A stretch of DNA of 52,768 nucleotides, taken from NCBI GenBank assembly GCA_016212705.1, contig JACREU010000108.1, forward strand, positions 1 through 52,768, written 5' to 3'. Below, in pieces: positions 3,183 through 41,217 of the stretch (positions are counted from its first letter, which is position 1; every line of letters begins with the position of its first letter). The DNA comes from Deltaproteobacteria bacterium (GTDB lineage: Bacteria > Desulfobacterota > GWC2-55-46). Made by a program: the position numbers and the translations under genes. Under the pieces are notes generated by a model, which saw only the letters and a program-made list of their open reading frames with translations, was not told the origin of the DNA and did no database searches.

Positions 3183-3221
3183 AAGGGGAACCAGGCCGTC
3201 GGCCTGGTTCCCCTTTTTATT
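3183..3221. terminator. Intrinsic terminator between convergent genes
   Basis: AAGGGGAACCAGGCC-gtc-GGCCTGGTTCCCCTT then T-tract; 15-bp perfect stem. Confidence 0.9.
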
Positions 3222-17592: not shown

Positions 17593-18327
17593 CTAATTGC
17601 CGGCGATGTGCAAGGGGGTCGGCCCGCCGATTATCCATCCGTTCTCGCGGGCGCTGAAGTGGTTTGATTTGCCGATGATGATGTGGTCGTGGACGATGAT
17701 ATCGACCGCGAGCGCGGCCCTGTCGAGCGTCTTTGTCAGCTGGCGGTCGACGCCTGAAGGGGTCGAGTCCCCGCTCGGGTGGTTGTGGACGAAGATGACG
17801 GCCTTCGCGTTGTGCTTGAACGCCTTTTCTATCGCCTTCCTCGGGTAGACGACCGTCTGGTTTATCGTCCCTTCATGGAGGGTCTCTATGGCGATGAGCT
17901 CGTTTCTTGAATTGAGATAGATGGCCAGGAACTTTTCGACCCGCTCTCCGGAGAGCGTCAGGTTCAGGTAATCGAGGACGTCCCCCGGGTTCCTTATGAG
18001 GTCCTTGCCCGAGAGCCGCTCCCTCAGATACACACCGGCCATGTCCTTTACGAGCCTTATGAGGAGCGCGGCGTTCTCGCCCATGCCGGGTACGTTTTTG
18101 AGGTCTTCCTGCGAGGCGTCAAAGACCGCCCTGAACGATTTGAACCGCGCTATGAGCGCTCCCGCAAGCGCCTTTATGTCTTTTCCGGGGACGGCGTACG
18201 CAAGGAGGAGTTCGAGTATCTCGAGGTTGTGGAAGGAGTCAAGCGAGCCGGCCTTGAAACGCTCCTTGAGCCTCTTCTTGCGCTCTTTGTCCGCCTCTGT
18301 CTTTTCAGCCGTGGATGGTTTTATCAT
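17593..18327 (-). CDS. radC: RadC family (JAMM/MPN+) protein
   Basis: HNHPSGDSTPS, HDHIIIG, N-terminal HhH region. Confidence 0.93.
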   Translation of the reverse strand: MIKPSTAEKTEADKERKKRLKERFKAGSLDSFHNLEILELLLAYAVPGKDIKALAGALIARFKSFRAVFDASQEDLKNVPGMGENAALLIRLVKDMAGVYLRERLSGKDLIRNPGDVLDYLNLTLSGERVEKFLAIYLNSRNELIAIETLHEGTINQTVVYPRKAIEKAFKHNAKAVIFVHNHPSGDSTPSGVDRQLTKTLDRAALAVDIIVHDHIIIGKSNHFSARENGWIIGGPTPLHIAGN

Positions 18328-18402
18328 TGATGGTCTCGCGGCAAGGTCAGGCTTGCGCCTGGTTAATGGGCTGACCTTGCTCTGATGTCAAAGTGTCTGG
18401 AT

Positions 18403-18408
18403 AGTATA
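18403..18408 (-). promoter_or_regulatory. Putative -10 element (TATACT) upstream of radC
   Basis: Reverse complement of AGTATA; ~34 bp from the palindrome centre. Confidence 0.45.
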
Positions 18409-18425
18409 ATAATTTCAAATACCTT

Positions 18426-18453
18426 TTTCGCCTGTACCAAGGTACAGGCGAAA
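18426..18453. promoter_or_regulatory. Perfect 28-bp palindrome, lux-box-like
   Basis: TTTCGCCTGTACC-aa-GGTACAGGCGAAA; core CCTGTACCAAGGTACAGG resembles LuxR-family operators. Confidence 0.7.
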
Positions 18454-18649
18454 TCTTTTATATTACTTAATGGCGGGTTTATCCTCCGGCCCTCATGTCT
18501 CCATAGTAGATTCATGCAGGGCGTTTTATCAAGCGTTGCAGGGGCGCCGCATCGACTATTTCCATGCGTCGTGAATAAGGTTTGAGCAAGGCCCGGGTGA
18601 ACGGCGGAGCGGGCATGGCGGCCGTCCGCCATGCCGGGCCGGGTGAACG

Positions 18650-19384
18650 TCAATTCGAGACCAGCCCCGAGCCAAAGGCGATCGCTATCGCGTGGGCCTT
18701 GTTCACCGCGTTTAGCTTCCTCTCGATGTTCTGGACGTGGAACTTTACCGTCCGCTCGCTTATGCGGAGTATCAAAGATATCTCCCAGTTGGTCTTGCCC
18801 TCTTTCATCCAGACGAGGACCTCTTTTTCCCTTGCCGAAAGCCCTTTGCCGTCCCCCGGAGCGCGCTCAGATGACCGGATGAGCGCCTGGTGAACGTGGG
18901 GGGTGAGCATGTCGAGTATCTCTTTGTGCCTTTCTTCGAACCTGTCCTGCCTGGCCGAGAATGAGAAGATGGAGCCCCTGCAACGCTCGCCGTTGACGCC
19001 GCTTGAGATGCCGTAGTTCAAACCGAAGTCCGTCGCCCTGTTCATGAGGTCGGTCTGGTCCCTGCCGTTGAAGAGATGTAACGCCTCGGACCAGCGGTGC
19101 GTCCTGAAGAACTTGTAATTGAACCTTATGATCGGGTCTTTCGTGTAGAGCCTCTCTCCGATGTATATCCTGCCCCATTCGTCCGGGTAGTCCAGGTTGA
19201 GTATCTTTGAGAGCTTCCCGGTGGAGGCGTCCCCGAGCGCGCAGACGGCGTTGTCGGCGGACAAAAGCCTCTTTATCCTCGCGACGACCCGCATGACGTC
19301 CGCCTCAGACCTGCTCTGTACGCACGCCTGGATTATGTCGAGGAGGTCGGCGAGCTCTTTTTTGGTAAAGTCCCTGTAATCCAT
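18650..19384 (-). CDS. LuxR-family regulator with autoinducer-binding-like N-terminal domain and HTH
   Basis: LSAREKEVLVWMKEGKTNWEISLILRISERTVKFHVQNIERKL HTH; EWGRIYIGERLYTKDPIIRF...HRWSE ligand-domain pattern. Confidence 0.88.
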   Translation of the reverse strand: MDYRDFTKKELADLLDIIQACVQSRSEADVMRVVARIKRLLSADNAVCALGDASTGKLSKILNLDYPDEWGRIYIGERLYTKDPIIRFNYKFFRTHRWSEALHLFNGRDQTDLMNRATDFGLNYGISSGVNGERCRGSIFSFSARQDRFEERHKEILDMLTPHVHQALIRSSERAPGDGKGLSAREKEVLVWMKEGKTNWEISLILRISERTVKFHVQNIERKLNAVNKAHAIAIAFGSGLVSN

Positions 19385-19440: not shown

Positions 19441-19467
19441 AATAAAAAGCCCCTTTTTCAAGGGGCT
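19441..19467 (-). terminator. Intrinsic terminator overlapping the cytochrome stop codon
   Basis: Minus strand AGCCCCTT-gaaa-AAGGGGCTTTTTATT. Confidence 0.85.
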
Positions 19468-20036
19468 GTGCTTTTTCCGGTAGTCTGCCTCGGGACCGAG
19501 TGGCATTTGAAGCAGTTCCTGGTAGGGAAGGCCACCCTGTCGTGGCACCTGCCGCAGAACTGCCCTTTCCATATCCCCGTCATGGTGATGGGCGTCGCCC
19601 CCGCCTTTTTTTTGAATATCTTCGGGTGGCAGACGGAGCATTTGAGCCAGACCGTATGCGCCGAATGCGGAAAGAGCACGTCCGGCATGAAGTCGAGCTT
19701 GGATTTTATGACGACGTCAGGGGCGGGCTCGCTGGTTTCAGGAGGCGGTCCCTGGCTGTCGAGGATGGAGTCCCTGGGGTTTATGAGCCCGTCCCTTATG
19801 GACTTGGTCCAATCGACGAACCCGTAGTTGTCCTTGGGGAGGAACTTCAGGGAGACTACGTCGGGCGTGGGGTCTATCATCCCGTTCTGTCTCCTCTTGA
19901 ACTGGCCGGGCTCCCTTTTGTAATCGAAGCTCGGCCAGTCCGCCGGGGCAGGGTCCATGTTGTTGCCTGCGAGCGTATCCGAGGCGAAGAAGAGCACCAG
20001 GGCCGCAAGAGTTATCTTGATGAGCTTACCGATCAT
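19458..20036 (-). CDS. Exported triheme c-type cytochrome (c7/c3-like)
   Basis: CSVCH, CGRCH, CFKCH heme motifs, signal peptide. Confidence 0.88.
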   Translation of the reverse strand: MIGKLIKITLAALVLFFASDTLAGNNMDPAPADWPSFDYKREPGQFKRRQNGMIDPTPDVVSLKFLPKDNYGFVDWTKSIRDGLINPRDSILDSQGPPPETSEPAPDVVIKSKLDFMPDVLFPHSAHTVWLKCSVCHPKIFKKKAGATPITMTGIWKGQFCGRCHDRVAFPTRNCFKCHSVPRQTTGKSTAP

Positions 20037-20169: not shown

Positions 20170-22038
20170 CTAACGGCCGAAGCGCGCCCCGCAGTACGGG
20201 CAGGCTATCCAGTCCGGCTCCCGGGTCTTTCCGCATGACTCGCAGTTCTTTTTTATGAAGTTCCCGCAGTGGGGGCAGGCCTCCGTGCCGGGGGGGACGG
20301 GTTTCATGCACGAGGCGCAGACCCCGCCGGGGTCCTCCTCCGCCCTGGAGAGGTATATTACGCGCGTGAGCTCGTCGAGGGTCGTTATCCCCGCCGCGAC
20401 CTTTCTAAGGCCGTCGAGGTGCAAAGGCGTCATCCCGGCCTTCGTGGCGGCTGACATGATCTCCTGATCGGGGGCGTCCGACGATATGAGCGCCCGTATG
20501 CCGGCGTTCACCGGCAGGACCTCGAAGACCCCGACCCTCCCTGAGTAGCCGGACCCGTTGCAGGAGGCGCACCCCGCGCCCCGGTAAAGCTTCCTGCCGG
20601 ACCACTTGAGCCCTGAGCGCTTTATCTCCGCGGAGCCCGGCGTGTACTCCTCCTTGCAGTTCTGGCAGATGGTGCGCACAAGCCTCTGCGCCACTATGCC
20701 GTTAAGGGCCGAGGCTATCATGTACGACGGTATCCCCATGTTCCGGAGCCTTATGACGGAAGATATCGCGTCGTTCGTGTGGAGGGTGGAGAAGACGAGG
20801 TGCCCGGTGAGAGAGGCCTGGTGGGCGATTATCGCGGTCTCGGCGTCCCTCATCTCCCCTATGAGTATCACGTCCGGGTCCTGCCTGAGGACGGACCTTA
20901 AGGTGTACGAGAAGGTAAGCCCGGTCTTCTCGTTTACGGCGACCTGGTTCACGTCCTTGAGTTCGTACTCTATCGGGTCCTCGATCGTGATGATGTTTAT
21001 CTGCTCTTTCTTTATGTGGCCTATCATCGCGTAGAGCGTCGAGGTCTTGCCGGAGCCGGTCGGGCCGGTGACGAGCACGACGCCCTGCGGGCGCTCGATA
21101 AGGTCCTTTACGCGGTTGAGGTCGTCCTTCAGGAACCCGACGCTTCCGAGGTCGTGGACCTCGGCCTTCGGGTCGAGGAGCCTCATGACTACGGTCTCCC
21201 CGTACTGGGTAGGCAGCGTCGAGACGCGCATATCGAGGCTCCTGTCGCCGAGCCTGACCTTTATCCGCCCGTCCTGCGAGACCCTGCGCTCGGCGATGTC
21301 CATGCTGGCCATGAGCTTTATGCGGGATGTGACCGGTCCCTGCACCCACTTCGGGAGCTGCATCGTCTCCCTCATGAGGCCGTCGACGCGTATCCGGAGC
21401 CTTACGCCCTTTTCATGCGGTTCTATGTGTATGTCGCTCGCGCGGTTGCCCGCGCCGTGGATGATGATGGAATCCACCATCTTTATGATCGGCGGGGCCG
21501 AGGACTTGCGCACCTGCTCGGAGATGTCGCGGCTAGCGTCGGGCTCGTGTATCACCTCTACGAGCTTGTCCTTCTTAAGGTCGCCTATGAGGTCCTCTAA
21601 CGGCTCGTTCAGGTGGTAGTAGCGCGAGATGGCGCCCGTTACGTCGGAGAGGGCCGCCACGCACGGCCGGATGTCGAGCCCCGTTGAGAACCTTAAATCG
21701 TCTATGGCGTTTAAGTTAAGAGGGTCGGTCATCGCCACGTTCAAGACCTTCCTGTCCTGGTAAAGGGGCACGAGGACGTACTTTTTGGCAAGCTTTTCGG
21801 AGACGAGTTTTATCGCCTCCGGGTCTACGGTGGCCGAACTGATGTCGACGAACGGGATGTTAAGCTGAAAGGAGAGGGTCTGCGCGATATCGACCTCGCT
21901 CGCGAAGCCCTTCTTTACTATGACGGCGCCGAGCCTGAGGCCCGTGCCGGCCCAGGATTCCTTAAGCGCCTCCTCGAGCTGTTCGCCGGAGATGAGGCCT
22001 GATTCGACGAGGAGCTCTCCTATCTTTTTTACCGCCAT
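20170..22038 (-). CDS. GspE/PilB-type secretion/pilus ATPase with C-terminal zinc ribbons
   Basis: GPTGSGKTSTLYAMI Walker A, LRQDPDVILIGEMRDAETA, internal CxxC; C-terminal CASC...CPHC...CESC...CPYC. Confidence 0.93.
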   Translation of the reverse strand: MAVKKIGELLVESGLISGEQLEEALKESWAGTGLRLGAVIVKKGFASEVDIAQTLSFQLNIPFVDISSATVDPEAIKLVSEKLAKKYVLVPLYQDRKVLNVAMTDPLNLNAIDDLRFSTGLDIRPCVAALSDVTGAISRYYHLNEPLEDLIGDLKKDKLVEVIHEPDASRDISEQVRKSSAPPIIKMVDSIIIHGAGNRASDIHIEPHEKGVRLRIRVDGLMRETMQLPKWVQGPVTSRIKLMASMDIAERRVSQDGRIKVRLGDRSLDMRVSTLPTQYGETVVMRLLDPKAEVHDLGSVGFLKDDLNRVKDLIERPQGVVLVTGPTGSGKTSTLYAMIGHIKKEQINIITIEDPIEYELKDVNQVAVNEKTGLTFSYTLRSVLRQDPDVILIGEMRDAETAIIAHQASLTGHLVFSTLHTNDAISSVIRLRNMGIPSYMIASALNGIVAQRLVRTICQNCKEEYTPGSAEIKRSGLKWSGRKLYRGAGCASCNGSGYSGRVGVFEVLPVNAGIRALISSDAPDQEIMSAATKAGMTPLHLDGLRKVAAGITTLDELTRVIYLSRAEEDPGGVCASCMKPVPPGTEACPHCGNFIKKNCESCGKTREPDWIACPYCGARFGR

Positions 22039-27850: not shown

Positions 27851-27888
27851 AAAAAAAGGCGGCTGATTTTCAGCCGCCTTTTTTTTCG
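27851..27888 (+). terminator. Intrinsic terminator
   Basis: GGCGGCTG-atttt-CAGCCGCC flanked by A- and T-runs. Confidence 0.93.
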
Positions 27889-41181: not shown

Positions 41182-41217
41182 AAAACCCCCTGTGGCAGGG
41201 CCACAGGGGGTTTTTTT
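41182..41217 (+). terminator. Intrinsic terminator
   Basis: CCCCCTGTGGC-agg-GCCACAGGGGG then T7. Confidence 0.93.

Follow-up and report, generated by a model that had tools for sequence, protein, structure and literature searches.

Organization of the luxR–radC locus

The window (the whole stretch of DNA analysed here, 52,768 nucleotides) contains a perfect 28-bp palindrome at 18426–18453, lying between two genes on the minus strand, luxR (18650–19384) and radC (17593–18327), which agrees with the first-pass annotation of both genes beside the palindrome on this strand. The luxR product (244 aa) has an autoinducer-binding domain (PF03472, 1e-18) and a GerE DNA-binding domain (PF00196, 4e-20), both above the curated cut-offs, as in AHL-type LuxR proteins, and it is the single Autoind_bind protein of the assembly. 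Its ligand-pocket residues (W70, Y74, D83, P84, W98, and G125) and DNA-binding residues (E186, L190, and G196) are intact; the set of residues inspected matches that used by others (PMC8553950). The radC gene, the predicted target, codes for a protein of 244 aa with a RadC-like JAB domain (PF04002, NF000642 above cut-off), in which the HxHPxG metal-binding motif of the family can be read in the translation as HNHPSGD. The gap between luxR and the palindrome (18454–18649) corresponds to a region that in relatives holds a convergent luxI and a second dyad, AACTG-N10-CAGTT, both of which are missing here. Upstream of luxR is a cytochrome c7-type gene (19458–20036, minus strand), a conserved neighbour of the luxR module that is a syntenic anchor and is outside the switch itself. 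At 20170–22038, also on the minus strand, there is a gene for a PilB/GspE-type ATPase in which the usual domains are followed by a C-terminal double zinc ribbon (PF12773).

The palindrome and its conserved core

The palindrome reads TTTCGCCTGTACC-AA-GGTACAGGCGAAA, and all 13 arm pairs are complementary around the central AA, just as it had first been described. Within it is an operator-like core of 18 bp, CCTGTACCAAGGTACAGG (18431–18448), which is kept across genera. This can be written as CCTGTACC-AA-GGTACAGG, with half-sites and spacing as in a lux box, i.e. a dyad of ~20 bp with a CTG-N10-CAG core. The outer TTTCG/CGAAA arms, in contrast, have no conserved pair in relatives, and the perfection of the full-length palindrome is partly accidental, the conserved part being a core of ~18–22 bp. 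Perfect arms of 13 bp with a loop of 0–4 occur at 0.0 per random window of equal size (first-order Markov model, 20 replicates). There are four palindromes with such arms in the window, including the one at 18426–18453, and perfection by itself is therefore not decisive. The other three (3185–3213, 27854–27882, and 41184–41212), which have perfect arms of at least 13 bp and short loops, are probably terminator hairpins. The pattern CTGTAC-N4-GTACAG has one match in the window, where 0.57 are expected with two mismatches allowed, and two matches in the whole 1.98-Mb assembly.

Promoter geometry

A predicted −10 hexamer for radC, TATACT, is present on the minus strand at 18403–18408, where the first-pass annotation had placed it, with 31 bases between the dyad centre and its first base. 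This spacing is conserved in relatives, and transcription would be expected to start near 18396. If the hexamer is assumed to occupy −12 to −7, the centre of the dyad falls at about −43.5, within a base of the class II position, and moving the start by one base recovers the −42.5 given in that annotation. When 21 loci are aligned on the box, 20 have a −10 hexamer 31–32 bp from the dyad centre (16 loci at 31 bases, four at 32); it lies on the flank that does not face luxI, and points at radC in those loci where radC is the neighbour. The best −10 in these 21 loci matches TATAAT at a mean of 5.48 of six positions. Shuffled flanks give 3.13 (no mean exceeds 3.67 across 2000 trials), and the flank facing luxI gives 3.10. 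Most loci have a poor −35, generally with one to three matches of six, and that of the window has three. A dyad near −42.5, the presence of a −10, and a poor −35 are the features of a class II LuxR-dependent promoter, and activation of this type is supported by the arrangement of these sequence elements. Because the −10 faces away from luxI, and luxI has a separate dyad (see below), the box is taken to be an operator for the gene on its other side; this is radC in most of the family, and a kinase or helix-turn-helix gene in some loci.

The same geometry bears on the direction of the predicted control. An EsaR-like LuxR would repress radC when without signal, with the signal lifting repression, and the box does overlap the −35 region, so that polymerase could be blocked by a protein bound there; a −35 that functions may also escape recognition in sequence alone. 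Most loci, however, have no good −35 to repress, and the centring of the dyad near −43 is the position of an activator. The geometry favours putative activation over repression of radC by LuxR, and we regard the repressor arrangement as unlikely.

The locus in relatives and its association with luxR

LuxR has orthologues in the family and order to which the metagenome-assembled genome (MAG) that includes the window belongs. The named records carrying one are MAGs of uncultured ‘Deltaproteobacteria’, many of them from groundwater, and, more distantly, Nitrospira. The usual order in relatives is cytochrome c7, a gene with only an Autoind_bind domain, luxR, convergent luxI, the box, and radC, such that in most of them the box sits between divergent luxI and radC. 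All intact luxI loci scanned have a perfect AACTG-N10-CAGTT dyad belonging to luxI, and loci that lack luxI lack this dyad too; it is probably luxI's own lux box, with a sequence unlike that of the radC box. In luxI promoters (e.g. L099, L092, and L095) there is also a conserved TGCTAAAAA ~20 bases beyond this dyad. The Autoind_bind-only gene (PF03472, ~195 aa, lacking a DNA-binding domain; e.g. L092:5406–5990, L084:5384–5974, and L089:5400–5984) is directly upstream of luxR in most related loci and its product keeps the ligand-pocket residues; this LuxR-like protein could be a LuxR antagonist or a signal buffer. One damaged locus, L097, in which luxR and luxI are frameshifted and the box is one base short, was considered as a natural control and was dropped because several single-base indels suggest that these are likely assembly errors. 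Its AACTG-N10-CAGTT dyad is just beyond the scanned stretch and is visible in the sequence.

The presence of the box is associated with that of luxR. With the strict criterion that the box be within 400 bp upstream of radC, it is found in 17 of 22 luxR-bearing genomes versus none of the seven that have a radC orthologue and no luxR (Fisher P=0.0005, which is a guide only because related genomes are non-independent samples). Of the five luxR-bearing genomes that fall short, two have the box just outside this distance (L090 and L094), two have radC apart from luxR, and in the fifth the upstream region is cut by a contig end. A further genome, G030, has the box, luxI and radC on a contig that stops inside luxI, and is not scorable for luxR. 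In G008 the cytochrome gene adjoins radC directly, with neither lux genes nor a box. The box core is kept across genera, either between luxI and radC or simply upstream of radC. The first-pass annotation had raised, against its own reading, the possibility of a repetitive element unrelated to luxR and radC; this was checked by the search for the core and with a promoter model, and was not borne out.

Loss of luxI

Both luxI and the Autoind_bind-only gene are absent at the locus in the window genome and its sisters G001 and G004, and they are also absent in G029 (L091, GWA2_55_10). The LuxR tree requires two separate losses of luxI, with strong support, and the box is kept in both of the lineages concerned. 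When the intergenic regions of the three sisters are aligned, a run of 22 columns spanning the box is invariant and forms their best-conserved block, with much of the rest having diverged. Conservation of the box without luxI is the pattern of selection, and radC is the likely reason for it. These observations also weigh on the idea that the box is a relic of a lost luxI promoter and idle for radC, to which its position between luxI and radC in relatives, and the loss of luxI here, lend some appeal. The idea fails because the intact luxI loci scanned have their own, different dyad upstream of luxI, and because the box is not decaying after two independent losses; the −10, in addition, is on the radC side. 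We consider a relic very improbable, and the second dyad rules out the box as luxI's own operator.

No luxI was found in the assembly (86% complete) or in the two sisters (97% and 90% complete); luxI could fall in the missing part of this MAG, though neither sister has one. The sole LuxI-like match in the assembly is a FeeM-type acyltransferase on contig C39, which was rejected as the cognate synthase: its match to FeeM is better than that to LuxI, it is in an unrelated cluster, and it is kept in a genome without luxR. The window's LuxR is therefore a probable solo as far as this assembly goes, with the qualification that the solo state is derived by loss of luxI, since relatives carry a convergent luxI at the locus. 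The C39 acyltransferase (273 aa) lies beside a B12-type radical-SAM-like protein and a large BTAD-domain regulator (G000:C39, L201:6131–12057), a group conserved in the luxR-less genome G003, and this neighbourhood is perhaps a separate small-molecule cluster. There is a RadC paralogue near this group (L201:12770–13492).

Other potential targets in the genome

We searched for additional targets by pattern matching and with a promoter sequence model built from the box loci, which covers only close variants of the radC-side box. The genome-wide search for the core, proposed at the first pass as a means of defining a regulon, returns two exact cores, one upstream of radC and one upstream of ligA. 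The second CCTGTA-N6-TACAGG is at G000:C11:20761–20778 (L002:1501–1518), between a multihaem cytochrome gene and ligA. It is without a good −10 at class II spacing, and as a second target it is weak, with E=0.015 against the promoter model. It is the next best match in the genome, which has no second promoter comparable to that of radC, and so the direct LuxR regulon may be radC alone. The ligA site is also present in the luxR-less G003, which is uninformative because the region is 91% identical there.

The palindrome could instead be an SOS operator placing radC under DNA-damage control: the core fits CTGT-N8-ACAG, the LexA box of the gamma- and betaproteobacterial type, radC is annotated as a DNA repair gene, and a second exact core is present upstream of ligA. 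This genome does have lexA, and the lexA promoters both here (G000:C106:39664–40263, L215) and in relatives (L205–L216) share a palindrome at the gene start, GGGTAACANNTGTNNCC, that is probably the LexA operator of the lineage, and they have no CTG-N10-CAG. The box is thus not the operator that precedes lexA, GGGTAACANNTGTNNCC is absent near radC, and the box tracks luxR, not radC alone; SOS control through this site is most improbable. That the palindrome is an intrinsic terminator or other RNA hairpin, as the 12 pairs followed by TCTTTTATAT in a plus-strand scan might suggest, is scarcely credible, because relatives conserve the CTGTACC core and the −10 distance but not the outer stem, and because no likely plus-strand gene reads into it.

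A predicted LuxR-dependent promoter for radC

Very probably, the palindrome is a lux box, the operator of a LuxR-type regulator, within a class II promoter that serves radC. This interpretation, put forward in the first-pass annotation from the window sequence, is strengthened by the footprint across genera, by the lack of the box in luxR-less genomes, and by its retention after the losses of luxI. A ligand-bound dimer of LuxR from the adjacent gene, with an AHL as the presumed ligand, would bind the 18–20 bp dyad ~43 bp upstream of the radC start, standing in for the absent −35 contact and bringing RNA polymerase to the conserved −10. Ancestrally, the same LuxR would also have activated the convergent luxI via its separate dyad, and the locus would have formed a normal quorum-sensing loop in which radC was a dedicated output. 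The window's clade would then have lost luxI and the Autoind_bind-only gene, and its LuxR, now a solo, probably continues to drive radC upon a signal from others or from an unrelated synthase. A more extended version, which we offer only tentatively, is that radC is a dedicated quorum-sensing output and that in the window's clade the LuxR solo eavesdrops on the AHLs of other species and controls RadC alone. If true, this would bear on the biological reason for such control, and would point to a community-linked role of RadC, e.g. in DNA uptake or the handling of mobile elements.

RadC proteins are a widespread and poorly understood family named for a role in repair, and a conserved promoter linking radC to a cell-density signal would offer a direct way of learning when the protein is needed. 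We also note that the locus appears to have gone from a quorum-sensing pair to a solo receptor twice with one target kept, so that the origin of LuxR solos can be tested at the base-pair level. With this locus, the known range of AHL-type circuits would come to include uncultured groundwater ‘Deltaproteobacteria’; a limited literature search returned no earlier report of this kind for them.

Comparison with known quorum-sensing systems

The lux box of Vibrio fischeri has the half-sites CCTGTA-N6-TACAGG at a class II position near −42.5, and its target is luxICDABEG. The window core has the same half-sites, spacing and class II position; the systems differ in that luxI is present in V. fischeri, and in that the predicted target here is radC.

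Literature on RadC together with LuxR is mainly a single study of Vibrio cholerae QstR, a LuxR-family protein downstream of quorum sensing, for which ChIP-seq placed a peak at 118 bp upstream of radC (PMC6237807). Expression of radC did not change significantly in that study; in other bacteria radC is reported to be induced during competence, although several species can do without it for transformation (PMC6237807). QstR differs from the LuxR described here in being without a known motif and in acting downstream of other regulators, not via an adjacent lux box.

The closest solved homologue of the window's LuxR is CviR (E=3e-35), whose operator in Chromobacterium is CTGNCCNNNNGGNCAG (PMC12114271). 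The CviR/CviI system is alike in its similar operator and its convergent luxR–luxI pair, although one fixed position in each half-site differs from the core (TAC instead of NCC), a link to radC is unreported there (PMC12114271), and the window is without a synthase gene.

A second informative comparison is with Nitrospira NspR1, for which a reporter and EMSA established that it acts at a CTG-N10-CAG box (PMC8553950); in binding assays this regulator required RNA polymerase. NspR1/NspI are likewise a luxR–luxI pair, and their box, ACCTGGCGGTTCCGCCAGGT, separates luxI from a divergently transcribed gene (PMC8553950). Both LuxR and LuxI of Nitrospira are homologous to those of the lineage, and luxR and luxI are convergent in the Nitrospira records found. 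One box, however, is common to luxI and a GGDEF/EAL gene in that system, whereas relatives of the window have a dyad reserved for luxI and a box for radC as the other predicted target, and the window's clade has lost luxI altogether. The mechanism is known; the lineage and the predicted target are new.
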